From positions 25,687,838 through 25,751,837 of the forward strand of contig NC_012877.2 of the NCBI RefSeq assembly GCF_000003195.3: a stretch of DNA of 64,000 bases. Reading direction: 5' to 3'. How positions within the stretch are numbered: the stretch's first letter is position 1; each line of letters begins with the position of its first letter. This document shows positions 204 through 19,887 of this stretch, one piece after another. The notes beneath the pieces were generated by a model. That model had not been told where the DNA came from, did not search any database, and saw only the letters and a program-made list of their open reading frames with translations. The DNA is from Sorghum bicolor (Eukaryota > Streptophyta > Magnoliopsida > Poales > Poaceae). Made by a program: the position numbers and the translations under genes.

Positions 204-555
204 TCAACACATATTTGAGAAGTCAAGTATGTTCAATTCATTCCTTAGCTTGCAAAACCTCTTCTCATCAAGTGGCTTGGTGAATATATCGGCAAGTTGA
301 TCATCGGTGCCTATACTCTCAATGCAAATGTCCCCTTTTTGTTGGTGATCTCTTATGAAGTGATGGCGGACATCTATGTGCTTTGTTCTTGAGTGTTGAA
401 CCGGATTGTTGGTGAGCTTCACGGCACTTTCATTGTCACATAGCAATGGCACTTCTTTGAAATTGATTCCAAAGTCCTTCAATGTTGCCTTCATCCATAG
501 GATTTGTGCACAACAACTACCGGCCGCAATGTATTCCGCTTCGGCGGTTGATAGT
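204..555 (-). pseudogene. Copia Pol, C-terminal RNase H fragment
   Basis: The minus-strand frame contains STAEAEYIAAG, the CDNESA motif and RTKHIDVRHHFIRD, the hallmarks of the Copia RNase H domain that removes the RNA strand during reverse transcription. It ends at a normal stop. The upstream half of the same domain lies at 12,897-13,285. The two halves join in frame once the Tat element and one copy of its target duplication are ignored (VAL then STAEAEY). The ATG available at about 566 is an artefact: it lies in the Tat LTR. Confidence 0.9.
551..555. repeat. Target-site duplication ATAGT, left copy, of the Tat element
   Basis: ATAGT directly precedes the LTR terminus TGTTGATG at 556 and recurs at 12,892-12,896 directly after the other LTR. 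A 5-bp direct repeat is the expected Gypsy integration scar, and it shows that the element integrated intact into the Copia RNase H region. Confidence 0.95.
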
Positions 556-1247
556 TGTTGATGCAAAACTGATCTGCAAACACAAAGGGCTAATACCCGA
601 TTCGAACGTTAAGGCGTGCCAGCCGATTTGACCTTGCTATCGGCGAAGGTGATAACTCGAATACTTTAGTCCTGACAACAGCGATGCGCCCGGATGTCAC
701 GGCTAAGAGGTACTCACGCGGAACTCGAGAACACGCCGAGCTTAAGTCGACGAATTCCTAAGAACTCGTAATAAAAGGAAAAAAGTATGACGAAGTCGTC
801 GAAAAGTAGATGCTGGAATATGAGTAAAAAAACGTGTGTTTGATTGATTTCTTGATTATGTTGATTACAAGGTCCTAGGGTTTATATTTATACCCTGCTC
901 AAAGAGCTACAACCAGACACGATTAGAATTCGAATTCCAAATTACACGGAATCCGTATACAAAACGATGCAAATAACTAAGGAAATAATAAAACTATCCT
1001 TCGGGACAACCCGAAACTCCTCCAGATGACAACTGGCAGCTTCCGGACTCCTCCTTCGCGTCATCGGCAATCCCCTTGCCATAGTCATCGGCAGATCTTT
1101 TTACCCAGCCATCGGCACCATATTACTGCCTGTGGACTTAATCACATTCAACTTCTCCCTCATCGGCAACCATCCTCATCAGCAACCCGCATTGTACTGC
1201 CACCCTATCCTGCCATCCTGGACACGTGCCCAAAAACGGTGTCAACA
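556..1247 (-). repeat. Tat element 3' LTR
   Basis: 692 bp, beginning TGTTGATG and ending GTCAACA on the plus strand, so TG...CA ends with a short inverted repeat. It is nearly identical to 12,200-12,891. I see three differences (about positions 700, 921 and 1,004), two of them CpG/CpA changes. A minus-strand TATA-like sequence lies at 882-892. GCCGAT/ATCGGC occurs six times in this LTR. Confidence 0.95.
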
Positions 1248-1262
1248 CATGCCCCCCAGTTT
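1248..1262 (-). promoter_or_regulatory. Polypurine tract of the Tat element
   Basis: On the minus strand the bases just before the 3' LTR read as a purine-rich run, CTGGGGGGCATG, ending at the LTR. This is the expected position of the plus-strand DNA primer. Confidence 0.8.
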
Positions 1263-1730
1263 CGGAGTATAAAACTATTAATGCTCCGAAATTCTCTGCA
1301 GTAATGATGCCTTCTCCGCAATTAATGCTCCTAATCTGGTAACCGACAACCTCAATCTGGACAACTCTGATCCTAATCCTCCGCAGATTCCTCGAAATTC
1401 CCAACTTCCTAAACGGGTATCTTTCTTGGCCGTACATCGGCAACAATTCCGTTATAAAGATCTGCCGATGCTCTGACCAGGATATTCGCAAAAAACGGTT
1501 ACTCCCCGTCTATCCGCCCATCGGCAAGATGACCGTTATAGAATATTGCCGATGGACCGACCAGGAGATCGTGCACAGTAAAATATCTTTAGATAATGAC
1601 CGCTTCCTGTCAAATCACCTGCACAATCCCTGGATTACCGTGCGAACAGTTACCATATCCATCTGAGTACCCTCGGGCTTCTCGGATGCGGCAAAGAGAT
1701 AAGACGGATTTGCCCTTGCCCATCTTGTCC

Positions 1731-1738
1731 TATAAATA
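1731..1738 (+). promoter_or_regulatory. TATA box of the antisense gene
   Basis: TATAAATA lies on the plus strand about 150 bp upstream of the proposed ATG of the antisense gene, inside the internal region rather than the LTR. A separate promoter would let the gene be transcribed against gag-pol. The stretch 1,263-1,884 otherwise holds no coding sequence I can support. It carries several GCCGAT/ATCGGC motifs (around 1,438, 1,463, 1,528 and 1,545). Confidence 0.6.
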
Positions 1739-1884
1739 GTTCCTTCTTGGGTACTCCCCCATTACACCATTCTACTATCCAACTTTGCTTTTCCAGCGGC
1801 GGCGCCATCTACAACCCTCAAGACCTCCGACAAGCACTCTTCTTCATCAACTCCGGTGCCCTCCAACGTCCTCTTCACGACAAG

Positions 1885-4800
1885 ATGGCCATTGGCTTCG
1901 TCGTCCCTGAGGTCAGACTTCCATCTCATCTGCTGTACCTTTTTCTTGCATTCCTGTTCATCTGCGATTCATCTTACCGAATATTTTCCTTTCCCTTTTT
2001 CTTTGTATTTTTATTCTCCAAAACACTAGGAGTTGTCCAACAAAATTGTCATCCCTACCGATCAACCACACCTTCAGTGCCTCGGCCCTCTAGGGGATCC
2101 AGATCCAACTGACCTTATCAATGCAGAAACCAACAGGATTCCCTTTAGAGCTGAAAACTTTTCTTTAGATCTGTGGAAAGACACCTTTCGTTCTTGGCCC
2201 AGCCCTACCGTAGGGTGGAAAGATTGGTTTTTGAGGGTCAGCAATTCTTATGAAGTTCAATGGGGTGAGAGAAAGCTAGCTCAATGCATTAGGCTATCCA
2301 TTGCCGATATGCACAGGAACGAGTCATTGCTGATAGCTGCATCCTACTTTTGGTCAGACACCCTCAATGCTTTTGTTTTTGGCCACGGCCCTGCTTCTCC
2401 TACCCTTGCCGATGTAGCCATGCTTACTGGGCTAGATATATCTTCTGCCGATAGCACCCACTTTTTTGATACCGCCCCCAGTGCCAAAGTGGAGACTCGC
2501 GCTATCAGCGGTTGGTCAGGGTACATCCAGAAGTACCGCGGGAGAGGGCCTGTCACCACAAAGGAGCAAACCACCTTTCTGAACATGTGGCTGGACAAGT
2601 TTGTATTCTGTGGTCGATCGGCAGGACCGACTTCTGTCTATCTATCGGCAGCAGAAAGACTGGCTAGCGGCGGCCAATTTCCTCTCAGCCGATATCTGCT
2701 CGGCGCTGTTTACCACCTTCTTCATCAGGTAGCCCAGAAACTCCTGCTTGGCCAATCCATCGGCAACTTGGGAGGCCCCTGGTGGTTTATTAATATGTGG
2801 CTCAATCTGCACCTGCATAAGCGCCTTGATTTCAACTTGTTCTCACAGCACTTCCCAAGAGATATAGCCGAGAATCATGTGTTAGGTGAAGAGGAATCGG
2901 CAACGCGTGCCCCCTTGAACTTTGGTGAAGCCGTTATAGTCTTACCTGGTTCAGGGAACAATCCGGATCAGATCGGCCGATTCTTCGAAACTCTGTATGA
3001 GGGTCTGGCCAGAGATGAACGACCATGGCTGGCTTATGACGACCCAGACAGCATGCTCCCTCTGACCTTCAATCCATTTGATGAAGCTCTTGACAGGGAC
3101 AATGAGGTGATGATGGCAATCGTGACTCCCAGAGCCATACCAGTGAATTTCTTCGGTAGCACGAAAACCTCCCCCCAAACCTATGAATTTTATAATCCAT
3201 CGGCATTAGATCGCCAGCTAGCTTTGGGCCAATTGCCGATTGCACTTCCTTATGCCAATGTAATAAAGCCCAGAGAGCCCATCGCCAACCTCCTCGAGTG
3301 GACTCGAGTAGCCCAGCTACCACCAAATGCCGATACAGATATAGATCTGTCAGAATGGGTTCCAGCCGCCTTTATCACTCAGGCATACAAGCTATGGTGG
3401 GCAGAATGGAAAGAGAATCTATTCTGCAGATCGGCCCTCTCATACCGCGGCATGATCGACCCCGAATACGAAGTCCCTGATGACACTGTAAGTATTTTAA
3501 ACCGATGTCTCATTTTCCAATACTATTCCCATCGGTAACTTACCCCTGTATTCCTTTTGCAGATTGACAACACCCCCCCATCGGTTAGCTGGAGTGGCAA
3601 GCCGATCGACTTATTCCCATCAGGCCCGATCTCTTCAATCGGCCATAATGCTCCTACTCTGGCTTCCATCTTGCACCGGGGTGCGCGTCTCAAGAAAGTT
3701 ACCACCAGGAAAACTCAGACATCACCAACGGTAACTGCTTCCACTCTGGCGCAAGCTTTCAAGGCAATCTGTTAAAACCTTTTTCATTTATACTGACTAT
3801 CTTTGTATCGGTTATCTGTGCTCATAAACTCCTTTTTGTTGTTGCAGCAAACTGGTGCATCGGCAAAAGCCAAACGCCAAGGTGCCGATGCCCCCCAGTC
3901 TAGTCAGCCAAAGAGGAAGGGCACCCAAGGTGCTAAGGCTGGAACAAAACGCCAGAAAGTGGCAACTCCTCCTCCGATGTCCCCAATCCCGGTGGAATCT
4001 TCCCCTTCTCCTCCAGAAGTCCAGGCACAGCAAGCACCATCTCCCCAACCAATACAGGAAGCACCACAGATGGAAGAACCCCAGCAGGAAGAACCTCAAA
4101 CGGCAGGTACATCAGCTGACGTAGGTGAACAAACAACTGGCCCGACAGGCCCAGTTATATCATCGGCGGTTTCCCCGACTCAGGCAGCTGTTCTCTCTCC
4201 TCCGGGTAACATATCTCAACAATACTTCCGCCGATAAACTTATTCTCATTTAATCTCTTAATCCTTCCTGTCTTCTTTCAGGCGATATCGTTCCATCGGC
4301 AACATTTGCCGATCAACCTGTAGCTCCATCGGCATCTTTGAGTCAAAGGCAAGAAATCGCCTTGAAGCAAGTAAGTCATCCAATTTTCCACCAGTATCGT
4401 CTGCCGAAGTTTTGACCATAAAACTGACTTATTTCATCTTCATTTTCAGGAACAAGATTCTCCCAACAGCTTATTCTCCTTCGCCATTGATATCTTCGAA
4501 GAAGAAGGCGAGGAAGCAAGCTCCTCTCGGGCAGTTGGAACTGTATCGGCAGAAACCAGAGCTAAGCTGGAAGAGTTATCGGCCATACTTCATCAAGACA
4601 CAACTCAACTGGTCAACGATTCTGACCCAGCCAAAGCTCTGTTCAAGACCCTTAGAGGCCAAATTCCTGCCGATGCTGAAGAAACACTCTTCCATGCTGC
4701 ACACCTAGAAAGCCGCCAGCTACAGTACCAGAGAGCCACTCGACGCCTTGCCGATAGAGCCGCTCGAATCCAGCTTTCTGAGGAGATGATGAAAGAAAAG

Positions 4801-5121
4801 CTCTTAGCCGATGAGAAACATAAGAACATCGGCACCTTAAAGTCCTCAGGTGATGCACTGAAGCAGAAAGTGTCTGATCTATCGGCAAAAAGAGAAGCTC
4901 TACTGGCCGAACTCAAGCAAGTAGAGGACGCTCTGTCCCAAGCCCAGCAAGAAGAGAGTCAACTGCCGGAGACCATCAAGCACCTTGAACAAGAACGAAA
5001 CGTCCATGGTCGCAAAGCGCTGCAGCTGAAGAGGAAGCTGAAGCCGATAGAAGGTTCTGCCGATGATGATATCAAAGAGATAGAGACAGCCAATCAGATT
5101 CAGCAATCCAAGCGCTGCTGA
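1885..5121 (+). CDS. Antisense gene of the Tat element: plant mobile domain protein, six predicted exons
   Basis: Predicted exons with GT...AG introns are 1885-1911, 2030-3487, 3563-3730, 3848-4205, 4282-4370 and 4450-5121. Together they give an open frame of 923 codons with no stop. Residues of about 40-420 resemble the plant mobile domain (aminotransferase-like, known from plant transposons and the MAIN/MAIL proteins): tryptophan-rich segments, LADVAMLTGLDIS, and GGPWWFINMW. A Pro/Gln-rich basic linker follows, and the last exon is rich in Lys/Glu/Leu heptads and probably forms a coiled coil. The frame at 2,033 opens with TTG, so I extended it through a short first exon (MAIGFVVPE), supported by the TATA box upstream. 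The first donor, GTCAGA, is weak. Antisense extra genes are known in Tat elements. Function is unknown. Splicing is predicted, not observed. Confidence 0.75.
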
Positions 5122-5274
5122 GCATCTGAAGCTTTCACCGGCAACACACCTTTGTTTTTCCGCTTTTAGTTTTTAGTCTAGCCGATAAGACTGTTATCGG
5201 CATCTTTTGAAACATTAAGTCTGCCCTCGAACATTTAAATCCAGCCGATAGGAGTGTTATCGGCACTTAAACTT
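5122..5274. terminator. Convergent intergenic region with two GCCGATA...TATCGGC hairpins
   Basis: This is the only gap between the converging antisense gene and pol. It holds two inverted repeats: 5181-5201 (8-bp stem GCCGATAA/TTATCGGC, 5-base loop) and 5244-5264 (7-bp stem GCCGATA/TATCGGC, 7-base loop). Both arms of each are the element-wide GCCGAT motif. A 3'-end or insulating role for both transcripts is an inference. Confidence 0.6.
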
Positions 5275-8200
5275 TTATGCGTCGACCCATATGCTGGGGT
5301 AGTACTTCTTTAAATATTTGCCATTTAATGCTCTGGGAAATTCAACTCCCTCGAGAGTTTCTAGAATATAGGCATTACCAGGAGCTGAGTGTCTTATCCG
5401 ATAAGGACCTTCCCAATTAGGAGACCACTTTCCAAACTTCGAACTTTTAGTCCCAACTGGCAAAATCAACTTCCATACCAAATCCCCATCGGCAAACTCC
5501 TTAGCCTTTACTTTTTTATCATACCATCTAGCAACTCTCTTCTTATTTTCTTCTATACTCATTAAAGCCTTTAACCGATGCCCTGCTAAATCATCTAACT
5601 CATCGGTCATCAAAGTGTCATAATCATCGGTAGCCAATTGATCTTGAAAAGATAATCGCCTAGATCCAGCCTTAATCTCCCAAGGCAACACTGCATCATG
5701 TCCATACACCAATTGATAGGGTGACACCTTGGTTGATCCATGACAAGCCATCCGATAAGACCACAGTGCTTCATTTAACAATGTATGCCACCGCCTAGGA
5801 TTTTCTTCAATCTTTCGTTTAATAAGCTTGATAATTCCTTTGTTAGACGCTTCGGCCTGCCCGTTGGCTTGAGCATAGTAAGGAGAAGAATTCAACATTT
5901 TAATTCCCATACCGATTGCGAATTCATCGAACTCCCCCGACGTGAACATGGTGCCCTGATCGGTAGTAATCGTTTGGGGAATCCCAAATCGGTAAATAAT
6001 ATGCTCCTTCACAAAATCAATCATATTGGCCGATGTGACTTTCTTCAAAGGAATAGCTTCGACCCACTTAGTGAAATAGTCAGTGGCAACTAGAATGAAC
6101 TTATGCCCGTTGCTAGATGGTGGATAAATCTGGCCGATCAGATCGATGGCCCACCCCCGGAACGGCCAAGGTTTTATTATAGGATTCATAGCCGATGCGG
6201 GTGCTCTCTGGATATTACTGAACTTTTGACAACCTTGACATCCCTTGAAATATTTAAAACAATCTTCAAGTATGGTTGGCCAAAAATATCCATTCCTTCG
6301 AATCATCCACTTCATCTTAAAAGCTGACTGATGCGCTCCACACACTCCTTCATGGATTTCCCCCATCAAACTTCTGGCTTCATCATCACCCAAGCATCGG
6401 AGAAGAATTCCGTCGATAGTTCGATAATACAATTCATTTTCAAGGAGCACATACTTGGTCGCTTGAAATCGAACCCGTCTTTCAACTTTTTTGGATGGAT
6501 CTTCTAGATAATCGATAATTTCTTTCCTCCAATCACCGGCACTGACTGCCGATGTCGCATTAATCATTGGCTGATATCCTGAGGCATGCTGGGCTAACCG
6601 ATTAGCGTCTTCATTATGCAATCGGGGAACATGCTCCAATCGGAAGTTCTTGAATTCCTTTAACAGTTGCGTACTTCTCTCGAAATAGGTTATGAGAACT
6701 TCACTTCGGCATTCATAGCTTCCGGCCAATTGATTTATAACCAACATGGAATCCCCGAATATTTCAACAGCATCAGCACGAACTTCCCTTAACAACTCCA
6801 ACCCCTTGATCAGAGCTTGATACTCAGCCTGATTATTTGTTGATGTAGCAACAATCGGCAAGGAAAACTCATACTTCCTCCCCTTAGGAGAAACCAATAC
6901 AATGCCGATTCCTGCCCCCCGGTCACAGGTAGAACCATCAAAGAAGAGCGTCCAGGGTGCAATTTCCAAGGTTTCCACTAGACCGCAATGCTGAGTCACA
7001 AAATCGGCCATGATCTGCCCTTTGACTGCCTTAGCCGATTCGTAACGCAAATCGAACACCGACAGCGCTAAAATCCATTTACCGATCCTACCACTCATAA
7101 TCGGCATAGATAGCATGTATCGGACCACATCATCTTTGCAAACAACAGCACATTCAGCCGACAACAGGTAATGTCTCAGCTTGATACATGAAAAATATAA
7201 GCATAAGCACAGTTTCTCAATGGCCGAATACCTGGTTTCAGCATCAATCAACCTCCTACTCAAATAATAAATTACTCTCTCTTTCCCTTCAAATTCTTGA
7301 ACTAAAGCTGAACCAATAACCGATCCATCGGTAGATAAATATAATTTGAAGGGTTTCCCTTGTTGAGGTGGAACTAAAACTGGAGGATTTACTAGATACT
7401 TTTTGATTTCATCCAGAGCCAACTGCTGTTCTTCTCCCCAAACAAACTCCTGATCGGCTTTCAATTTAAGAAGAGGACTGAAAGCACGAATTCTCCCAGA
7501 TAAATTCGATATAAATCTTCTGATAAAATTCACCTTGCCGATCAAGGATTGGAGCTCGGTTTTATTGGTAGGGGCCACTATTTTATTGATGGCATCAATA
7601 GATCTTCGACTAATTTCAATACCCCTCTGATGTACCATAAAACCAAGAAACTGCCCTGCCGATACGCCAAATGCACATTTGTTGGGATTCATCTTCAATC
7701 CATGTTTCCTTGTGCATTCCAACACTTTTCGTAAATCGGCAAGATGCTTTGAGAAATCTCCAGACTTAACCACCACATCATCGATATAAATTTCTATGAA
7801 CTTGCCGATGAACTCATGAAATATAAAATTCATGGCCCTTTGATAGGTAGCACCAGCATTCTTTAACCCAAAAGTCATGACTATCCATTCAAATAGTCCA
7901 ACATGACCGGGACACCTGAATGCGGTTTTTGGAATATCTTCCTCTGCCATGAATATTTGATTGTAACCCGCATTACCATCCATGAAGCTGATAACCCGAT
8001 GGCCGGCCGCAGCATCAACCAGTAGATCGGCGACAGGCATTGGGTATCCATCCATCGGCGTAGCTTTATTGAGATTCCTGAAATCAATGCACACCCGAAG
8101 CTTCCCGTTCTTCTTGTAAACCGGAACAACATTGGAAATCCATTCGGCATACCGACACTGCCGAATAAACTTAGCTTCAATAAGTTTAGTGATTTCGGTC

Positions 8201-8508
8201 TTAATATCAGGTAGAATGTTAGGATTACATCGGCGGGCTGGTTGCTGATGTGGCCGAAATCCAGACTTGATGGGTAGCCGATGTTCGACAATTGATCGGT
8301 CTAAACCAGGCATCTCTGTATAATCCCAAGCAAAGCAATCTTTATATTCTTTTAACAAACTAGTCAATTGTCGCTTACACTCAGGATCTAATTTAGCACT
8401 AATAAAAGTAGGCCTAGGCTTATCACCACTACCTATATCTACTTCTACCAAATCATCGGCCGATGTGAACCCCTGGCCTAATTTTCCATCATCGGCGAAT
8501 CTATCCAT
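5275..8508 (-). CDS. Tat Pol: reverse transcriptase, RNase H, second RNase H, integrase
   Basis: A frame of 1,077 codons. The reverse transcriptase comes first, with the catalytic YIDD at about residues 241-244. A Gypsy RNase H follows (STDGS, then SAIEKLCLCL). A second RNase H (WTLFFDGST, TNNQAEYQALIKG, HNEDANRLA) at about residues 510-660 is the archaeal-type domain typical of the Tat lineage. Integrase has an H-C zinc motif (CQGCQK) and a DDE triad at about D789, D850 and E886, with 35 residues between the last two. Its C-terminus ends near WVDA. The frame is intact but out of phase with the protease upstream by one base in a T run at about 8,510. It would act in the cytoplasmic particle and then the nucleus. 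Expression of a full polyprotein is not possible as written. Confidence 0.93.
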   Translation of the reverse strand: MDRFADDGKLGQGFTSADDLVEVDIGSGDKPRPTFISAKLDPECKRQLTSLLKEYKDCFAWDYTEMPGLDRSIVEHRLPIKSGFRPHQQPARRCNPNILPDIKTEITKLIEAKFIRQCRYAEWISNVVPVYKKNGKLRVCIDFRNLNKATPMDGYPMPVADLLVDAAAGHRVISFMDGNAGYNQIFMAEEDIPKTAFRCPGHVGLFEWIVMTFGLKNAGATYQRAMNFIFHEFIGKFIEIYIDDVVVKSGDFSKHLADLRKVLECTRKHGLKMNPNKCAFGVSAGQFLGFMVHQRGIEISRRSIDAINKIVAPTNKTELQSLIGKVNFIRRFISNLSGRIRAFSPLLKLKADQEFVWGEEQQLALDEIKKYLVNPPVLVPPQQGKPFKLYLSTDGSVIGSALVQEFEGKERVIYYLSRRLIDAETRYSAIEKLCLCLYFSCIKLRHYLLSAECAVVCKDDVVRYMLSMPIMSGRIGKWILALSVFDLRYESAKAVKGQIMADFVTQHCGLVETLEIAPWTLFFDGSTCDRGAGIGIVLVSPKGRKYEFSLPIVATSTNNQAEYQALIKGLELLREVRADAVEIFGDSMLVINQLAGSYECRSEVLITYFERSTQLLKEFKNFRLEHVPRLHNEDANRLAQHASGYQPMINATSAVSAGDWRKEIIDYLEDPSKKVERRVRFQATKYVLLENELYYRTIDGILLRCLGDDEARSLMGEIHEGVCGAHQSAFKMKWMIRRNGYFWPTILEDCFKYFKGCQGCQKFSNIQRAPASAMNPIIKPWPFRGWAIDLIGQIYPPSSNGHKFILVATDYFTKWVEAIPLKKVTSANMIDFVKEHIIYRFGIPQTITTDQGTMFTSGEFDEFAIGMGIKMLNSSPYYAQANGQAEASNKGIIKLIKRKIEENPRRWHTLLNEALWSYRMACHGSTKVSPYQLVYGHDAVLPWEIKAGSRRLSFQDQLATDDYDTLMTDELDDLAGHRLKALMSIEENKKRVARWYDKKVKAKEFADGDLVWKLILPVGTKSSKFGKWSPNWEGPYRIRHSAPGNAYILETLEGVEFPRALNGKYLKKYYPSIWVDA

Positions 8509-8985
8509 TAAAAACCGTCGTCAGAACCGACTGCTTGGATCGGTGGAATCTCATAATCGGCAACTTTGAGAAAATCTTTCTCCCAAACCTCTCCTGAAAT
8601 GCACCTAGTCCTTTCATAAGTATCCGCTTCTGCCGATGCGATAACATAAGAAGAATCCCCTGGGACGATCTCAATCTTGTCACCTACCCACTGAACCAAG
8701 CACTGATGCATTGTAGATGGGACACAACAATTGGCATGAATCCAATCTCTCCCCAATAATAAATTGTAGGCACCTTTTCCGCTGATCACGAAAAAAGTTG
8801 TCGGCAAGGTTTTGCTGCCGATGGTCAACTCTGCACATATCGCCCCCTTGACTGGAGACACGTTTCCCTCAAAGTCTTTGAGCATCATATCGGTCTTGGT
8901 CAAGTCTTGATCCCCTTTCCCAAGCTTCCGATATACTGCATACGGCATAATATTAATAGCAGCCACCATCAACTAGGATCTTAGT
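8508..8985 (-). pseudogene. Tat aspartic protease, frameshifted
   Basis: The frame at 8,508-8,972 reads NIMPYAVYRKLGKG and LLLGRDWIHA, which are the middle and C-terminal parts of a retropepsin. The catalytic start (ILVDGG) is in the upstream frame and ends after GGCY at a TAA at 8,953-8,955. A one-base shift therefore falls exactly at the active-site turn. A second one-base shift separates this piece from RT at the T run near 8,510. Both look like mutations. The second could be a slippage site, but its spacing and the presence of the first argue against that. Confidence 0.85.
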
Positions 8986-11900
8986 CATTGGCTGCCCATC
9001 AACCCTTCCTTTGAGGAACAAAGCCTTAAGATGCTGCCTTTCGTCATCGGCAGGTTTCTCAAAGATAGCCGTCATCGGATCCAGAGCCAACTGAGCTATC
9101 TGATCAGAAAATTCCAACTCATCGTCACTAGCTGGTGCAAGAAACTCCATCGGCAACATGAAGACCATGTTGACGCCAGCCGATGGACCTTCCCTCTTAG
9201 TGTCTGACGGCTGCCGACTTCCAGAGTTCTCTCCTTTATTTAGCTCTTCCTGCCTTTCTCGTTGCAACCTCCTTTTCTGTGTCTTGGTTAATCCTTGAGG
9301 GCACCATGGAGGAAGTGGCCTTTGCCTTGCCGTCAGGCGTTGGTTCTCTCTTGACTCCATGCGATGCGTGTTAGCATCCCTGCAAAATATGAATTCATCG
9401 GGAACCCGCGCATCAGCCATTCCTTCGAGCTCCTCTCGGTTCCTGGGAAAATACTGGACACGGTCACTAAGTCTGTTGTGCCCACTGAATCTGCCCCCCA
9501 GCCGGTCATGAACTGACACCCTTCCTCTGATTAGCCCATTAGCTCGCCGTTCATCATCATAATAACGCCGATTGTTCCTATTGTACCGATCATAACCGTT
9601 GCATTCAGGGCAGTCTCTGACAGTAGGAAGCTTGATATTTTCCTCCCAACAGTGGATGAAGAATGGGCAATTCCAATGATCCCTGTGCCGATTCCACTCC
9701 TGTCGGCGTCTTTCTTCTTCCCATTGATAATCTTCCTGCTGGCGTCGATACCGATCTTCCCGTTGCTGCCATTTTTCTCGAGACCTCCTATGAGTTATGA
9801 CGACGCCAGATCGAGGAAGCCTTCCTGAGCTAGCTCCTTCCTGGACCAAGCCCTTACTTCTTGCATCGGCAGTAGTAACTTGATGCTGAGGATCTACCGA
9901 TGCACTCTTCTCAGCTGTTTCCGACGTTAAGACCTTGGCCTTCCCCTTAGCATCCAACATGTTTGTCGGGAATGGATGTTGGTCTATCTTCATCGGCTTC
10001 TGGGCTTTGGAACTGTCAAATTTGATTCTCCCTGACTCTATAGCCGATTGCAGCTGCTGTCTGAATACTTTGCACTCGTTGGTGTCATGGGAAGTTGCAT
10101 TATGCCACTTGCAATATCTCATCCTCTTCAACTCTTCTGCCGACGGGATCACGTGGTTAGGTGACAGTTTGATTTGACCTTCCTGAAGTAGAAAGTCAAA
10201 TATCCTATCGGCCTTGGCGGTGTCAAAGGCGAACTTCTCTAGTTCCTTCTGCCCAAAAGGACAAGACATCGGCTTCTTGTTTTTTACCCACTCGGCCAAA
10301 CCGATTACTGGTTCCTCATCGGAATCTGAGCTTGTTGCTTCGTCAACAAATGACACTTTCTTATTCCATGCCCTCTTAGGCTCGAAAGGCTTGATGTCTT
10401 GATCAGATATCCTCTGCACCAAATGACTTAAACTTTCGAACTCCTGGGAGGCATACTTATCCCTGATATGTGGCAACAAACCTTGGAAAGCCAAATCGGC
10501 TAGCTGCCGATCATTCAAAACCAGGCTATAGCATTTATTCTTGACCTCTCGTATCCTCTACACAAATCCCTCGACCGACTCATCATTACGTTGCCTCAAC
10601 TTGACCAAGTCGGTGATCTTCTTCTCATGAACCCCCGAGAAGAAGTATTTGTGGAATTGCTTCTCTAGATCGGCCCAAGTAATTACTGAATTAGGAGGTA
10701 ATGATATGAACCAAGTAAAGGCCGATCCAGACAATGATGATGAAAATAGACGAACCCTCAATTCGTCCCTGTTACCAGCCTCTCCACATTGAATAATGAA
10801 CCTGTTGACATGCTCCATGGTCGACGTGTCGTCCTGTCCGGAAAACATTGTAAAATCCGGTACCTTGTACCGATGTGGAAGCGGGATCAAATCATACGCT
10901 GGAGGATACGGTGTCCGATAAGAATAAGTGTTGACTTTGGGTTTTATCCCAAATTGTTCCCTCATTACTTCAGCAATCTTATCGGCCCAATACGCATCGG
11001 CATCTTGCCGATGAGGCGGCTGCGGATCTGGCACTTGGTGGCGAACCTCCACGTGTCTGTTCGGGACGTGACCTGCATGGAACATTGTATTGGTCACCTG
11101 TCCTCCAATCTGCGGACTACCAAACTGCTGTCCACCGATTGGCTGTCCTCCGAGTTGCTGTCCAAAATTTATTGGCTGGTTGGGAATTCCCTGACCTTGG
11201 AACCCGGGATAAACCTGCCCTTGCTGGAACCCCGTAGTCTGATAACCTTGCTGGGGCGACTGTGGAAAGGCTTGCTGTCCAAGCCATCCATTATTAGCGT
11301 TCATCGGCATAGGTGCTGCCGATGATTGGTAATTGGGTACCGTCGTTGAATTGACATACCCCGACTGGGCCATAGGCCTCTGTTGCATCAGCATTGACTC
11401 TGCCGATGCGTTGGGCATCTGGAACATTGAATCTTGAGGATTTCCAGTGTGAGGCCTTGCAGTAGTAGTTGTGGTATACCGAGGACTCTGGTTCACCGGC
11501 ACATTGGAAGGCGCCGATGTCATAGGAGTTTTGCCCCTCATGTCAGTTATCTGTGATGTTCCCGGCGTCAACTCTGGAGGCATACCATAACCCCACCAGT
11601 TAGGAGGAAGATTTAACCCTGACATTGCCGATGCCAACATATCTGTTGTCAGTTTATGCTGCCCAACTGAAATTTGTGGGTTGGTTGCCATCGGCATAGA
11701 TAGTGCACCAGTAGTCCCCAATGTACTTGGAGGGACGGCAGACTGTGCACTTACATTCGTCAAGGCAGCCGATGGAGCCGTGACCTCTGGTGCCGTTGGC
11801 TGATGATGGGAGGGCCCCACATAATCTGGCAGGATTTGTCCTTCCTTGAAAGTTCTTGCCACGGCGTTGAAAACCGTATTAGACAGTACGCCAGCTTGGT

Positions 11901-12153
11901 TAATCAACGCTCGATTGATGGCATTGTCTACCATATCTTGAAGCTTGCCAGGGTTGGCGTCGAAGGTGACCTGCCGTGGTGCCGGCAGTGCATCTTTCTG
12001 GACCACTTCGCCGCTCCTGTTTATGCTGAAAGACTTCAGGCACTGCTGCTTGAACTCTTCCACGGCTTGGGCAATAGCTTGCTTTTGCTCATCCTTGAGG
12101 TTGGCCTCCGTCACGGGGATGACGTTCTCTTGATCGAGGTCGGAGATCGACAT
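8986..12153 (-). pseudogene. Tat gag polyprotein, one in-frame TAG
   Basis: The start is taken as the ATG at 12,153 (MSISDLDQENVIP) because an upstream ATG at 12,210 lies in the LTR. The N-terminal part is Gln/Pro/Gly-rich. The capsid-like retrotransposon Gag domain (FTMFSGQDDTSTMEHVNRF, FTWFISLPPNS, FHKYFFSG) lies before a TAG at 10,558-10,560. The same frame continues after it (NDRQLADLAFQGLLPHI) to a Cys/His segment (CKWHNATSHDTNEC) and a basic linker rich in Arg before the protease. The TAG sits in the conserved Gag domain, where readthrough would be unusual, so I treat it as a nonsense mutation. Confidence 0.88.
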
Positions 12154-12173
12154 GTTGATCTTGATCTTGAATC

Positions 12174-12195
12174 GGTCCCACCGAGCGTGCCAAAA
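12174..12195 (-). promoter_or_regulatory. Primer binding site of the Tat element
   Basis: Just inside the 5' LTR the minus strand reads TTTTGGCACGCTCGGTGGG. The position and the TGG start fit a tRNA 3'-end complement. I could not assign the tRNA from memory. Confidence 0.6.
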
Positions 12196-12199
12196 GATG

Positions 12200-12891
12200 T
12201 GTTGATGCAAAACTGATCTGCAAACACAAAGGGCTAATACCCGATTCGAACGTTAAGGCGTGCCAGCCGATTTGACCTTGCTATCGGCGAAGGTGATAAC
12301 TCGAATACTTTAGTCCTGACAACAGCGATGCGCCCGGATGTCACGGCTAAGAGGTACTCACGCAGAACTCGAGAACACGCCGAGCTTAAGTCGACGAATT
12401 CCTAAGAACTCGTAATAAAAGGAAAAAAGTATGACGAAGTCGTCGAAAAGTAGATGCTGGAATATGAGTAAAAAAACGTGTGTTTGATTGATTTCTTGAT
12501 TATGTTGATTACAAGGTCCTAGGGTTTATATTTATACCCTGCTCAAAGAGCTACAACCAGACACAATTAGAATTCGAATTCCAAATTACACGGAATCCGT
12601 ATACAAAACGATGCAAATAACTAAGGAAATAATAAAACTATCCTTCGTGACAACCCGAAACTCCTCCAGATGACAACTGGCAGCTTCCGGACTCCTCCTT
12701 CGCGTCATCGGCAATCCCCTTGCCATAGTCATCGGCAGATCTTTTTACCCAGCCATCGGCACCATATTACTGCCTGTGGACTTAATCACATTCAACTTCT
12801 CCCTCATCGGCAACCATCCTCATCAGCAACCCGCATTGTACTGCCACCCTATCCTGCCATCCTGGACACGTGCCCAAAAACGGTGTCAACA
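12200..12891 (-). repeat. Tat element 5' LTR
   Basis: 692 bp with the same ends as the left LTR (TGTTGATG...GTCAACA) and three differences from it. It is followed by the second ATAGT (12,892-12,896). It holds the minus-strand TATA-like sequence that would drive gag-pol and six GCCGAT/ATCGGC motifs. Confidence 0.95.
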
Positions 12892-12896
12892 ATAGT

Positions 12897-15781
12897 GCAA
12901 CACTATTTTGCTTCTTGGATGACCATGAGACAAGTGATCTTCCCAATAGTTGGCATGTGCCCGATGTGTTTCTTCTTTCAATTTTGCATCCCGCATAGTC
13001 CGAATCGGAATATCCAATAAGTTCAAACTTTGCACCTTTGGGATACCACAAACCAACATTTTGTGTATGCTTCAAGTACCTCAATATTCTCTTTGTTGCT
13101 TTCAAATGACTTTCTCTTGGTGAGGCTTGGAATCTTGCACACATGCATACACTAAACATGACATCCGGTCTTGATGCGGTCACATAGAGTAGGCTTCCAA
13201 TCATAGATTGATACAACTTTTGATCCACCATATTTCCACTTGTATCACTATCTAGGCTTCCATTTGTTCCCATTGGAGTGCTAATTTATTTTGCATCATC
13301 CATTCCAAACTTCTTGAGCATGTCTTTTATGTACTTGCCTTGACTCACAAATGTGCCATTCTTCAATTGCTTGATTTGAAGACCAAGGAAGTAGCTAAGT
13401 TCTCCAATCATTGACATCTCAAACTCATTAGCCATCATGTTGCCAAACTCCTCACAAAATTCTTGATTGGTTGATCCAAATATGATATCATCAACATATA
13501 TTTGCAACACAAACAAGTCCTTGCCAATCTTCTTGATGAAGAGAGTGGTGTCAACCTTGCCCATCGTGAAACCTTTAGAGAGTAAGAAATCTCTCAATCT
13601 CTCATACCATGCTCTTGGTGCTTGCTTCAAACCATACAATGCCTTTCTTAGCTTGTAAACATGGTTGGGTTTCTTGTCATCTTCAAAACCGGGAGGTTGC
13701 TCAACATATACTTCTTCATTGATATAGCCATTGACAAATGCACTTTTCACATCCATTTGGTATAGCTTGATGTTATGAGCACAAGCATAAGCTAACAAGA
13801 TCCTAATTGCTTCCAATCTTGCAACCGGGGCATATGTTTCACCAAAGTCAAGACATTCAACTTGAGTATAGCCTTGTGCTACCAATCTTACTTTGTTTCT
13901 TACAACTATCCCATCTTGATCTTGTTTGTTGCGAAAGACCCATCTAGTGCCAATGACATTATGATCACTAGGCCTCTCAACTAATTCCCATACTTGATTT
14001 CTCTTGAAATTGTTAACCTCTTCATGCATAGCATTAACCCAATCAACATCTCTCAATGCTTCATCAATCTTCTTTGGCTCAATGTGAGACACAAAGGAGA
14101 AATGCTCACAAAATGATGCTAATCTTGATCTAGTTTGCACTCCTCTTTGAATGTCACCTATGATATGATCCAATGGATGATCTCTTGCAATATTTGTTGG
14201 TTGGAGTATTTGCACTTGATTGCTTGCACTTGGTTGGTCATGAGATGATGTACTAGCTTGTTGATCTTGCACTTGAGTACCACTTGTACTAGCTTGATTT
14301 TGATCATGAGAACCACTAGCTTGCACATTAGGGGTAGGAAGCACTTGATCTTTGTCATCTTCAACATCAATCACTTCTCTAGGCCTTAAATCACCAATAT
14401 CCATATTCTTCATTGCATCGGCCAATTGAGTGCCTCTCACATCATCTAGATTCTCTTCTTCTTCTTCTTGAGAGCCATTGGTTTCATCAAACTCAACATC
14501 ATGCACCTCCTCAAGAGTACCACTAGCCAAATTCCAAACTCTATAAGCTTTGCTAGTAGTGGAGTAACCAAGCAAGAAACCTTCATCACATTTCTTTTCA
14601 AATTTACTCAATCTAGTGCCGTTCTTCAATATGTAGCATTTGCAACCAAAAACCCGAAAGTATGCAATGTTGGGCTTTCTTCCATTCAGGACCTCATACG
14701 GAGTCTTCTCCATCATTGGGTGACAATAGAGTCGGTTGCTATAGTAGCAAGCCGTGTTGATTGCTTCGGCCCAAAAAGAGTGACTCACATTGTATTCACT
14801 CAACATTGATCTTGCCATGTCAATCAAGGTTCTATTCTTCCTCTCAACAAGACCATTTGATTGTGGAGTGTACTTGGCCGAGAATTGATGCCTAATGCCA
14901 AATTCATCACAAAGCTCATCAACTCTTGTATTCTTAAATTCACTTCCATTGTCAATTCTCACTTTCTTGATGGTTGTTTCAAACTCATTGTGTATTCTCT
15001 TGACAAATGATTTGAAGGTTGCAAAAGCATCACTCTTGTCACTAAGAAAGAATACCCATGTATATCTTGTGAAATCATCCAGTATCACAAATCCATATTT
15101 GTTTCCACCAATGCTTGTGTATGTGGTTGGTCCAAACAAGTCCATGTGCAACAACTCAAATGCCTTGCATGTACTCATGATGCTTTTCTTTGGATGAGTG
15201 TTGCCAACTTGCTTTCCAGCTTGACATGCACTACAAAGCTTGTCTTTCTCAAATGTGACATCTTTCAAGCCTCTAACAAGATCATGCTTGACTAACTTGT
15301 TTAATTGTTTCATTCCAACATGACCAAGCCTTCTATGCCATAACCAACCCATGCTAGATTTAGTGAGCAAGCATGTTGACAATTGAGCTTCACTAGCATT
15401 GAAATCAACCAAGTATAGATTCTCATATCTAAAGCCTTTGAATATCAAGTTGGAGCCATCTACACTTATGATCTCTACATCATCAACTCCAAAAATGCAT
15501 TTGAAACCAAGATCACAAAGTTGAGCTATGGATAGTAAGTTGAACTTCAAGCTCTCTACTAGTAGCACATTGGAAATGCTCAAGTCATTGGATATAGCAA
15601 TTTTACCAAGCCCTTTGACCTTGCCTTTGCCATTGTCACCAAATGTGATACTATCAACACCATTGTCATCATTTGGATTGATTGAATTGAACATTCTTGA
15701 ATCACTGGTCATGTGTTGTGTGCACCCACTATCAAGCACCCAATGCCTTCCTCCAGCTTTATAGTTTACCTGCAAAACAAA
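12897..15781 (-). pseudogene. Copia Pol: protease, integrase, reverse transcriptase, start of RNase H
   Basis: One minus-strand frame. It starts with the protease active site (HWVLDSGCTQHM), then the GAG-pre-integrase HHCC finger (HRRLGHVGMKQL...CSACQ). The integrase core has DLFGP, IDNGSEFKN and GLVERKNRT. An acidic, Gln/Ser-rich linker follows, then reverse transcriptase (NKVRLVAQGYTQ, KSAFVNGYINEEVYVEQPPGF, catalytic YVDDIIFGS). A TAA at 13,286-13,288 breaks the frame after KKFGMDDAK. It continues in the same phase with KLYQSMIGSLLYVTASRPD and SDSDYAGC, until the Tat insertion cuts RNase H. The MQVNYKAGG start is only the first Met; the frame is open back to the Gag TGA. Confidence 0.92.
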
Positions 15782-17866
15782 TCAATGTTTCTTAGGTACC
15801 CATACTTGTTTGGGTCCTTGGAGGTTAGTGACTAAGCTTTTTGGTACCCAAATAGCCTTCTTCTTTGGACCCACAATTGGTGTACCAACAAACTTAGCAT
15901 GCACACCCTTCTCACCCTTGGTAAGCACATAACATGAATAAAAAGGAATGTAAGGTACATTAGAAATTTTCTTGTTCTTGTTCATTTTATTGCAATTAAG
16001 CTCTAGGTGCCCAACTTGCTTGCATCTATTGCAATACCGACCATTGCTCTTCACAAAGCTAGGCTTGTGAGTTACAAAGGCCGCCTTGCCTTTCTTGGGG
16101 GTATAGCCTAATCCCTCTTTGTTGAGAGAGAACCTTTGGCTACCCAAGCACTTTAGCAAGCGGGCCTCACCACCATAGGCCTTGCCTAGGGCGTGAGTGA
16201 GCTCATCCACCTTTCTCTTGAGAGTCTCATTCTCAACCTTTAGTGAGGTATCACAAGTGACACTAACACTAGAAGTAGAGGTAGAGTTGGTGGTGGTGGA
16301 TGAAGACCTACATGAAGAGTTAGTGGCAACAACAATAGGTGGGTTGGGTGATTCTTTAGTTAAGTCACATGTTGTGCCCACATCACATGATACAACAACC
16401 TTTTCCTTGTTCTCTTCTAATAACAAGGAGTGAGCTTTTTCAAGCTTGGTGTGAGCCTTGCCAAGCTTCTCATGGGCTTCCACTAGCCTCTCATGATTAG
16501 CATTGAGCTCATCAAAGGATTGCTCAAGAGCTTTTAACTTCTTGGCCAATTCTTTGCACTTCTTGTTTTTAGATTGAATAAGTGAATCGGCTTGTTCTAG
16601 CATGTCCATGAGTTGTTCATTAGTGAATTCATTTTCATCATCACTATCACTATCATGTTCATTTTCACTTTCACTTTCACTCTCATCATATTGTACCTTG
16701 TGGCCCTTTGCCATGAAGCATGAAGGAGTGTCGAAGAGTGATGGCTTGTTGATAGCAATGCTTGCAAGCGCCTTCTTCTTGGATGCCTTGTCATCATCAC
16801 TAGAATCATCATCCGAAGAAGCATCACTATCCCATGTCACAACATAGGATCCACCCTTCTTCTTCTTCTTCTTGAAGACCATCTTCTTCTCCTTCTTTTC
16901 TTTCATCTCCTTCTTGTTCTTCTTCTCATGCTCATCATGATCACTATTGTATGGACAATCCGCCACAATATGATCGGGGCTCTTGCACTTGTAGCATAGC
17001 CTCACATATTCCTTGTTCTTGGAGTTGTCCCTTCTCTTTCTTGTATGGTAGCCCTTCTTCTTCATCATCTTGCCAAACTTGCGGACAAAGAGTGCTAATG
17101 TTTCATCATCACTATCATCATTGGAGCACTCCTCATCACTTGATTCTTCTTTCTTGGCCTTGCCCTTGTTCTTGCTCTTGGATGAAGAGCTAGCTTTGAA
17201 TGCTACACTCTTCTTCTTCTTGTCATCATCATCCTTCTTCATGATCTCATCATCATCACTGTCATTGTATTGATCTTCGGTCATGACATCTCCAAGTACC
17301 TCATTTGGAGATACACCGGTCAATCCACCTCTAAAGATGATTGTTCTCAATGTCTTGAACCTCTTGGGCAAGCACATCAACAACTTGTGAATGAAGTCCT
17401 CATCCTTCACTTTCTCACCAAGGCCCTTGAGATCATTGATGATGACTTGGAGCCTATAGAACATCTTTGGTATAGACTCATCATCCTTCATCTTGAAGTT
17501 TGATAGCTTGTCCTTGAGCATGTACAACTTGGCACTTTTTACCGTTGTAGTGCCCTCATATGTTTCTTCAAGTCTTGTCCATACTTCACTAACCTTCTCA
17601 AGATCTTTGACTTGTTCAAATACTTTTGAATCAATGCCATTGTATATTATGTTGAGAGCCATGGTATTGCATTGCTTGTTGGCTCTCTCATTGTCGGTGG
17701 GGTTAGCCGGATCAAGAATCACAAAGTCATTTTCGGTGACTTCCCACACTCTATCATTTATTGATCCAAGATACATTTTCATCTTTCTCTTCCAATAGTC
17801 AAAAGAACTTGTGCCATCAAAGAACGGTGGTTTGCCCCCAACATGGTTGAACACTATTTGAGCCAT
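15782..17866 (-). CDS. Copia Gag of SIRE type
   Basis: A frame of 694 codons starting MAQIVFNHVGG. The N-terminal third is a Copia Gag domain (PFFDGTSSFDYWKRKM, W-T-RLEETYEG, FHKLLMCLPKRF). Lys- and Asp-rich linkers follow. Two zinc knuckles are visible: CYKCKSPDHIVADC, and CNRCKQVGHLELNC near the C-terminus. Between them a heptad-rich stretch (EQADSLIQSK...LEKAHSLLLEE) is a likely coiled coil. It packages RNA in cytoplasmic particles. It ends at TGA (15,782-15,784), directly in frame with Pol. Its start is 60 bp downstream of the primer site. Confidence 0.93.
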   Translation of the reverse strand: MAQIVFNHVGGKPPFFDGTSSFDYWKRKMKMYLGSINDRVWEVTENDFVILDPANPTDNERANKQCNTMALNIIYNGIDSKVFEQVKDLEKVSEVWTRLEETYEGTTTVKSAKLYMLKDKLSNFKMKDDESIPKMFYRLQVIINDLKGLGEKVKDEDFIHKLLMCLPKRFKTLRTIIFRGGLTGVSPNEVLGDVMTEDQYNDSDDDEIMKKDDDDKKKKSVAFKASSSSKSKNKGKAKKEESSDEECSNDDSDDETLALFVRKFGKMMKKKGYHTRKRRDNSKNKEYVRLCYKCKSPDHIVADCPYNSDHDEHEKKNKKEMKEKKEKKMVFKKKKKKGGSYVVTWDSDASSDDDSSDDDKASKKKALASIAINKPSLFDTPSCFMAKGHKVQYDESESESENEHDSDSDDENEFTNEQLMDMLEQADSLIQSKNKKCKELAKKLKALEQSFDELNANHERLVEAHEKLGKAHTKLEKAHSLLLEENKEKVVVSCDVGTTCDLTKESPNPPIVVATNSSCRSSSTTTNSTSTSSVSVTCDTSLKVENETLKRKVDELTHALGKAYGGEARLLKCLGSQRFSLNKEGLGYTPKKGKAAFVTHKPSFVKSNGRYCNRCKQVGHLELNCNKMNKNKKISNVPYIPFYSCYVLTKGEKGVHAKFVGTPIVGPKKKAIWVPKSLVTNLQGPKQVWVPKKH

Positions 17867-17925: not shown

Positions 17926-19887
17926 TGAAAGGTCCTAATATGGCTAGAGGGGGGGTGAATAGCCTATTTAAAAAAAAAATCTACAAACTCACTAGAGCAA
18001 GAGGTTAGTAAATAACAAAGCGAAGCTTTTTGCTCTAGCTCTAATGGGGTGTTTGCAAGCCACCTATCCAACAATTCTAGTTGATATAATCACTAGGCAC
18101 ACAAGAGCTATGTCACTACTTACACTAGAAAGCTACTTAAAGTTTCTATACAAGTAAGTAAGCTACTCTAGTTTGCAGGAATGTAAAAGAGATGGTTTGA
18201 ACTTTATACCGCCACGTAGAGGGGATGAACCAATCAATAATATGAAGTCCAATCACCGGGAGAAATCCAATGAACAATCACAATGGAGACACACAATTTT
18301 TCTCCCGAGGTTCACGTGCTTGCCGGCACGCTACGTCCCCGTTGTGCCGACCAACACTTGGTGGTTCGGTGGCTAAGAGGTGTAGCACGAACCTCGTCCT
18401 CACTAGGACACCACAAGAACCTACCCACAAGTGAGGTAACTCAATGACACGAGCAATCCACTAGAGTTACCTTTTGGCTCTCCACCGGGGAAGGTACAAG
18501 ACCCCTCACAATCACCGGGAGATGGCCACGAACAATCACCAACTCGTGCCAATGCTCCTCCGCTGCTCCAAGCCGTCTAGGTGGCGGCAACCACCAAGAG
18601 TAACAAGAAAACCACAGCTAGAACGATCCCCAAGTGCCACTAGATGCAATCACTCAAGCAAATGCACTTGGAATCACTCCCAATCTCACAAAGATGTATA
18701 ATCTATGAAGGAGATGAGTCGGAGGTGTTTGCTTAGGCTCACAAGGATGTAAAGTATGTTAGAATGCCAAGAGAGTGAGCCCCAAGCCGGCCAAACACGT
18801 ATTTATAGCCCCTCAAACAAATAGAGCCGTTGGCTCTTTTCACTGGGCAAACTGCGGGGTCACCGGACGCTCTTAAAGGGGCACCGGACGCTCAACACCA
18901 GCGTTCGGTGCTCCAACTTCAGCCGCGTGTCAGAGTCTAACGGTAACCTGCAGAGCACCGGACGCTGAGCAGGTTGGCACCGGACGCGTCCGGTGCACAC
19001 CGGACTCATGCGCAGAGAGCTCCGCAAACTCGCAAGGTCACCGGACGCAAGCCACCGGATGCACCCTGAGCGTCCGGTGCTCACAGGACTCACACCCAGA
19101 GAGGTCTGCAAAACGCGCGGACACTAGACTCAGACCACCGGACGCTCCAGCTTGCGTCCGGTGCCTGGCGTCCGGTGCCTAACCCTAACTGAGCTAGGCA
19201 GCCTGCACACCGGACGCTCAGACACAGCGTCCGGTGCCTCTGAGCCAGCGTCCGGTGAGTGTTCCTCAGCGAGAAACACTCCCGCGACTTCTCCAAATTT
19301 CCCATCGGCGCAATAGAAAATATGCACTTCATTTTCTCAAAAAGCGCCGAATCCCGTCTCGCAAGCTCGGCGGGAGGGAGAGAGGAACCCATCCTCTCTC
19401 TACCCTTGAAACTTCACCTCCTTCTCAAAGTGTGCCAACACCACAAGTGTAAACCAACAAGTGTGCACGTGTGTTAGCATTTTCACAATCATTTTCTTTG
19501 AAGGAGTTAAGTTAGCTCACTAGGTTCTAAATGCATGCACATGAACAATGACACCTAGTGGCACTTGATAACCGCTTAGCCAAAGAATTCCCCGCTTTAT
19601 AGTATGGCTATCTATCCTAAATGTGATCACACCCTCTATGGTGTCTTGATCACCAAAACCAAAACCCTAAGCAATACCTTTCCCTTGATCTCCATAGGGT
19701 TTTGTTTTTCTCTTTCTTCTTTTCCAAGTTGAGCACTTGATCATCTTGTGGTCATCACCATCATTACTATGATCATCTCTTGCTCCATCACTTGGCATGT
19801 ACCAACCTTATTAAGTCTACACACACTTAGCATAGAGGTTAGTACTTAGGGTTTCATCAATTATCCAAAACCAAACTAGGGCTTTCA
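17926..19887 (-). repeat. Copia 5' LTR
   Basis: On the plus strand it opens TGAAAGGTCC and closes GGGCTTTCA, giving the TGAAAG/CTTTCA terminal inverted repeat and TG...CA ends. About 1.96 kb. A minus-strand TATA box (complement of ATTTATA, 18,801-18,807) lies downstream, in LTR sense, of a GC-rich block of short repeats at 18,857-19,258. The several small plus- and minus-strand frames inside it are repeat shadows. Confidence 0.9.
18857..19258. repeat. Cluster of about 15 CACCGGACGC/GCGTCCGGTG motifs in the Copia LTR
   Basis: Within 400 bp, CACCGGACGC and its complement GCGTCCGGTG (with a few one-base variants) appear about fifteen times in both orientations. At 18,978-18,995 two copies meet as the perfect palindrome CACCGGACGCGTCCGGTG. 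The block is upstream of the TATA box in LTR sense, so it lies in U3, and it is dense in CG and CCGG sites. Confidence 0.85.

Follow-up and report, generated by a model that had tools for sequence, protein, structure and literature searches.

Why should one six-letter word recur throughout a single retrotransposon, in coding and non-coding DNA alike? In the window, the whole stretch of 64,000 nucleotides of Sorghum bicolor DNA that was analysed, the word ATCGGC and its complement GCCGAT crowd into one element, laid out as follows.

551..555 (left) and 12892-12896 (right), no strand: target-site duplication ATAGT, read from the flanking letters
556..12891, minus strand (the gag-pol strand): whole Tat-type Ty3/gypsy element with an LTR pair, a 5-bp flanking repeat and 101 ATCGGC/GCCGAT
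556..1247, minus: 3' LTR, 6 motif sites
2033..3487, plus: antisense gene exon 1, plant mobile domain (PF10536, E=2.6e-15); splice model, with the ORF extending to 3538
3563..3730, plus: antisense gene exon 2 (model; the end is uncertain and may be later)
3848..4205, plus: antisense gene exon 3, basic linker (model; linker judged by eye)
4282..4370, plus: antisense gene exon 4, three motif sites (model)
4450..5121, plus: antisense gene exon 5, coiled-coil-like C-terminal part, 67% identical to Miscanthus P0011; stop at 5121
5122..5274, no strand: non-coding stretch between the convergent genes, motif sites at 5181, 5196, 5244 and 5259
5275..8508, minus: pol, with reverse transcriptase, two RNase H-like regions and integrase (from Pfam); 22 motif sites
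8953..10518, minus: gag C-terminal/pre-protease ORF (from homologues); 12 motif sites
10558..12210, minus: gag ORF (PF03732); 12 motif sites
12200..12891, minus: 5' LTR, 6 motif sites
12706..12761, plus: CATCGGCA three times, 24 bp apart, in the 5' LTR; the same in the 3' LTR at 1062-1117

The element is a young Ty3/gypsy retrotransposon of Tat type that carries an antisense plant-mobile-domain (PMD) gene. Its LTRs differ at 3 of 692 positions and ATAGT is present on both flanks, from which a recent insertion follows; the original prediction had placed the element at 556..12891, and these coordinates are correct, the LTRs lying at 556-1247 and 12200-12891. The pol domains stand in the gypsy order (RVT_1, RT_RNaseH, RVT_3, rve) and, judged by Pfam domains, place the element in the Tat clade, of which a dual RNase H is a trait (PMC9289625). 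The ORFs flanking the element on either side are of Ty1/copia type, as judged by eye.

The PF10536 match exceeds the cut-off and lies between pol and the 3' LTR. A PMD situated inside a Gypsy element corresponds to the Gypsy-encoded PMD of the PMD-A clades (PMC5418596). Our model of approximately five exons is based on homology with a Miscanthus protein bearing both a PMD and PF07197. Exon 5 matched no Pfam family above the cut-off, the ORF at 8953..10518 had no match in the Pfam scan, and TRP28 was not among the Pfam matches of the scanned stretches (six plus three, covering some of the reading frames). Neither by sequence nor by fold (predicted model, mean pLDDT 69) did the PMD give a useful PDB match. 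Membership of the Retand lineage, as described in the available text of PMC11963269, was not supported, the antisense ORF yielding a PMD and the stretches scanned no TRP28. Between the window and the antisense half of a further sorghum copy (L033, described below), exon 5 (4450-5121) is 20% diverged and the PMD exon 7.5%; most of the motif sites in exon 5 stay or become ATCGGT.

The abundance of the word was assessed against several controls. The element contains 101 copies (GCCGAT 47, ATCGGC 54), with 5.5 expected from dinucleotides. Once one LTR is removed, 95 remain against an expectation of 5.1, the top score among all hexamers, and 500 dinucleotide-preserving shuffles of this sequence averaged 5.0 with a highest count of 14. 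The six coding ORFs hold 67; in 500 synonymous-codon shuffles, with proteins and codon usage held fixed, the mean was 12.3 and the highest count 23. Elsewhere in the window (the other 51.7 kb) we found 9 copies, where 8.7 are expected, and five other slices of element length, the last two of which overlap, contained 1 to 3 apiece. According to the exon model, 49 of the 101 sites lie in gag-pol, 31 in antisense-gene exons, 9 in internal non-coding DNA (1381 bp) and 6 in each LTR, such that 80 are coding. Within coding DNA the word occurs in all three codon phases and in both orientations.

These counts bear out most of what had been predicted from the sequence: approximately 95-100 copies with about 6 due to chance, fewer than ten elsewhere (a chance level, as it proves), six in each LTR, occurrence in all three codon phases, and the failure of protein sequence to explain the sites. 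The shuffle control that the prediction had named gave far lower counts (maximum 14 versus 95; coding maximum 23 versus 67). Sites had been reported in the antisense gene, gag, pol, the gap and the introns; these were recovered, with the introns weaker than claimed, the exon model leaving a single exact intronic site, at 4230.

The word is sharp and takes the form (C)ATCGG(C or, less commonly, T)(A), because the one-mismatch words other than ATCGGT are near or slightly above expectation. ATCGGT alone is clearly raised (25 versus 4.4 expected), confirming the earlier report that ACCGAT/ATCGGT is a frequent near variant. ATTGGC (14 versus 8.3), ATCTGC (13 versus 7.9) and ATCAGC (12 versus 7.8) are slightly raised, and the remainder occur at about their expected counts. 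A flank preference is evident, with C before the word in 48 of 95 cases and A after it in 55 of 95, giving CATCGGCA. With one LTR removed the strands are balanced (46 and 49), and since the orientations are equal, double-stranded DNA rather than RNA is the probable recognised form. The LTR is the exception to this balance: five of its six sites share one orientation, and in the 5' LTR the distances of four sites from its start are 81, 132, 156 and 180 bp. Overall the spacing is random-like (CV 1.06; random 0.98), at about one site per 120 bp. No periodicity was found at 10.5, 147, 165, 180 or 200 bp, and no large tandem array within 556-12891.

A different pair of words was observed in the Ty1/copia element next to it (ORFs 13286-17866), where CACCGGAC/GTCCGGTG occurs 14 times, in either orientation, within 400 bp (18861-19258), partly as an 84-bp tandem unit (18986-19145). 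This is a second motif cluster, belonging to another element and perhaps situated in its LTR.

We examined the retention of the word in other sorghum copies of the element. The best 40 of 4390 first-look candidates were scored, and 30 near copies, with pol DNA 98-100% identical, were analysed; each has between 42 and 54 motifs in 6 kb. Motif sites were compared with control hexamers of like make-up. Single-copy changes in 45 motif sites numbered 54 versus 53.6 in the controls, as expected of dead copies. Changes common to at least two near copies numbered 10 in the motif versus 17.5 in the controls (P=0.04), and four of these ten yield ATCGGT.

A further copy was compared in three pieces: L032 (95% pol identity to the window), L033 (the antisense half, 85.6% identical) and L034 (the gag half). 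In L033, 44 window sites can be aligned: 37 are exact, 4 have become ATCGGT and 3 are lost; as shared sites over any, this amounts to 37/48 for the motif versus 163/486 for control hexamers. Its non-coding tail, although 22% diverged, keeps all four window sites (5181, 5196, 5244, 5259), and exon 5 (20% diverged) keeps six of nine, with two more changed to ATCGGT. All four alignable LTR sites are likewise kept, among them every 3'-LTR site matching the trio with 24-bp spacing. Retention in L034 was 29/37 versus 257/477 in controls (P=0.003), while in the pol piece, L032, the difference (16/24 versus 143/253) was not significant. For the three pieces together the values were 82/109 and 563/1216 (P=6e-9).

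A wider set of seven pol pieces, L035 plus six picked for spread, was taken from a search with sorghum protein P0205, in which the best 47 of 28941 first-look candidates were scored. These pieces are 81-87% identical to the window pol (12-19% diverged) and 84.6-91.6% identical to each other. In all seven, ATCGGC ranks 1 of 2080 hexamers, with 8 to 23 copies versus 0.5 to 1.2 expected. Pooled retention was 83/131 versus 351/1244 for control hexamers, and six of the seven pairs were individually significant, L036 (5/18 versus 38/176) being the exception; the P values serve as guides, because every pair draws on the same window sites (18 in the compared part of pol) and the control windows overlap one another. 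The word thus behaves like a DNA sequence held by purifying selection. No motif-free Tat family that might have served as a negative control was found within sorghum, a Lolium query returning 29 of 29 scored matches at 63-64% identity. No relatives of the element were found in viral contigs, and a genome contig scan gave one match (L001, 29% identity), which was left out of the comparisons.

Certain amino acid pairs, Ser-Ala, Ala-Asp and, on the gag side, Pro-Met, exceed composition in the encoded proteins (5275-10518, 2033-3538). Ser-Ala occurs 13 times in pol versus 4.5 expected, and Pro-Met five times versus 0.6 in 8953-10518; this excess is apparently an imprint of the DNA word on protein sequence. 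We define a peptide shadow as the hexamer that accounts best for the peptides seen in homologues, and all ranks and P values that follow refer to homologues among the matches listed. The groups are rough: among the matches listed, the Lolium group comprises 13 proteins, 8 of them from Lolium multiflorum, and the group under 58% identity comprises 64, of which those named are from dicots. With pol, PMD and the gag-side ORF combined, ATCGGC comes first among 2080 hexamers both in close relatives and, separately, in far grass relatives. Individually, the pol ranks are 7 (close), 3 (67% relatives), 4 (rice), 400 (Lolium group) and 201 (under 58%), and those of the PMD and gag are 20 and 8 in close sets and 5 and 30 in far sets. 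When the window sites were masked, the ranks became 635 for the close set, 11 or 22 for far grasses, 1524 for the Lolium group and 1270 for the under-58% group. These masked ranks indicate that shared descent explains the shadow in the close set, and that the far set alone hints at sites of its own.

Among the same listed matches, the contrast with under-58% pol gave ranks of 8 (close), 4 (67%), 13 (rice) and 910 (Lolium group). Contrasts of close against far sets were weak for the PMD (218) and gag (97), because the far sets bear signal too. Once under-58% conservation was subtracted, the motif dipeptides of pol stood out in the three 67% relatives (P=0.0008) and in 20 rice proteins (P=0.008), with no clear excess in the Lolium group (P=0.24). 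The pol values before subtraction were P=0.046 (67%), 0.075 (rice), 0.58 (Lolium group) and 0.80 (under 58%), and those for the other proteins 0.03 (gag far), 0.04 (PMD close), 0.40 (PMD far) and 0.41 (gag close). Indirectly, through these protein sequences, the motif seems to predate sorghum and to be missing or weak in the Lolium group.

What, then, might the word be for? The strands are alike, the word is sharp, it occupies coding and non-coding DNA, and it is kept across diverged copies, all of which support a recognition site. A protein that recognises the word is the simplest cause of a sharp, mostly orientation-free word kept over an entire element, and we consider a selected recognition site strongly supported and highly probable. 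In our best explanation, ATCGGC (with ATCGGT tolerated and CATCGGCA favoured) would be recognised as double-stranded DNA, in either orientation, along the whole element. A sequence-specific protein that needs many sites in one stretch would target solely DNA of such density. With less certainty, the element may make its own reader, most plausibly the product of the antisense PMD gene, and binding may keep element chromatin open or relieve host silencing, as VANC does on VANDAL. The LTR cluster would recruit the same protein to the promoter.

The candidacy of the PMD follows from its kinship with MAIL1 and MAIN and from the nuclear or DNA-binding antisense proteins of related elements. Gypsy-only PMD clades are widespread in flowering plants and are related to MAIL1/MAIN, host proteins that act in transposon silencing (PMC5418596). 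The antisense proteins of related elements have been described as nuclear or as predicted DNA binders (PMC7264820, PMC11963269). DNA binding by MAIN/MAIL1 themselves is given as unknown in PMC9899485, and no function for element-encoded PMD proteins was found in the available text of the literature searched. We judge that anti-silencing mediated by the PMD has roughly an even chance of being right, and for the best explanation as a whole, a dispersed ATCGGY site with the PMD as candidate reader and anti-silencing as outcome, the balance is similarly even. Of the interpretation first offered for this locus, the DNA-binding recognition site is thus well supported, while the PMD as reader and a VANC-like purpose are plausible. 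A broader proposal is put forward more tentatively: that a grass Ty3/gypsy lineage bears an orientation-free ATCGGY address code which fixes amino acids, and that its own PMD, of which host MAIN/MAIL1 are relatives, reads this code as self and thereby escapes silencing.

The main rival supposes that a host DNA-binding protein, such as a chromatin factor or an activator of AP2/ERF type, reads the motif, and that the element gathered sites for transcription or open chromatin. RCCGAT (GCCGAT 95, ACCGAT 25, both strands) does resemble the DREB core A/GCCGAC (PMC8199153), and four sites lie no more than 180 bp from the LTR start. However, the DREB core itself is unenriched, GTCGGC (GCCGAC) occurring 5 times versus 3.1 expected, so that the sites are not those of the DRE/CRT type. 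A promoter role would leave the sites throughout gag, pol and the antisense gene unexplained, and a host factor should serve other elements too, yet elsewhere in the window the word is no commoner than chance predicts. We regard this rival as less probable than the best explanation, but as a serious one. A still less probable reading, in our estimation, is that the motif serves some other step involving double-stranded DNA, such as nuclear retention, nucleoprotein packaging, recombination between copies or self-targeted integration. Its element-wide, unoriented layout does recall dispersed address words, but there is no end clustering beyond the LTR sites, and the target site of the present copy, ATAGT, is without the word.

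Two explanations dispense with a reader altogether, and we consider both extremely improbable. In one, the host or reverse transcription produces the word through a habit of mutation, an alternative already raised in the original prediction, or of base composition. The word does contain a CpG, and the CpG-decay words ATTGGC and ATCAGC are slightly raised, as decay predicts. Yet such a habit is disfavoured by the unenriched remainder of the window (9 versus 8.7), by the near-expected counts of the other one-mismatch words, by the 30 near copies, whose single-copy changes strike motif and control sites equally (54 versus 53.6), and by the diverged copies, which retain the word well beyond control words. 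The other holds that the proteins need Ser-Ala, Ala-Asp and Ile-Gly and that the DNA word merely follows. Some grass relatives do conserve the dipeptides that the motif encodes, but those positions show no particular conservation in the Lolium and under-58% groups. Such a constraint is refuted for most sites by the synonymous shuffles of the same proteins (12.3 versus 67) together with the non-coding and LTR sites, which exist and are kept.

No prior description of this motif-saturated element was found in the available text of the open-licence PMC literature. A sharp, selected target word offers a ready bait for testing the function of the PMD proteins that such elements encode. If the best explanation is true, sequence-specific self-recognition would extend from a family of DNA transposons to the abundant LTR retrotransposons, and a DNA signal would shape protein sequence across a whole element.

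Several known systems invite comparison. Bacterial DNA uptake sequences are likewise short words, dense, running through coding DNA on both strands; they belong to bacterial chromosomes and natural transformation, whereas the present word belongs to a plant transposon. The antisense ORFs of Retand elements, for which a regulatory, nuclear or DNA-binding role has been proposed, likewise form an extra gene that sits in the same place and runs in the same direction (PMC11963269). They are typed by TRP28, found between pol and the 3' LTR in 97% of Retand clusters (PMC11963269), whereas the Pfam match of the sorghum antisense ORF is a PMD. The available text of PMC11963269 and PMC7264820 makes no mention of a dispersed motif for Retand elements. 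Host MAIL1/MAIN belong to the same domain family as the candidate reader, and the genes misregulated in connection with them bear the DOWN motif (PMC5418596, PMC7156037, PMC9899485). The DOWN motif, given for MORC1 as CATGCAGTTT, is unlike ATCGGC, and the available text does not show binding.

Element-specific high density, as described for VANDAL motifs, is found here also, with 101 copies in the element and 9 in the other 51.7 kb. VANDAL elements are MULE-type DNA transposons and not LTR retrotransposons, whereas the sorghum element possesses LTRs, a reverse transcriptase and an integrase. In the VANDAL system the protein made by the element binds its motif and strips away DNA methylation. 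VANDAL motifs lie chiefly in non-coding DNA, in tandem and in a single orientation (PMC5735166), in contrast to the dispersed and unoriented sorghum motifs, 80 of 101 of which are coding. The likeness to Arabidopsis VANDAL21 and VANDAL6 with their VANC proteins consists in a short, family-specific word, dense in the element and rare elsewhere (PMC5735166, PMC10398659), accompanied by an element-encoded candidate reader. Motif density marks the VANDAL copies that are bound (PMC5735166), and in the sorghum element, too, density rather than any single site would confer specificity.
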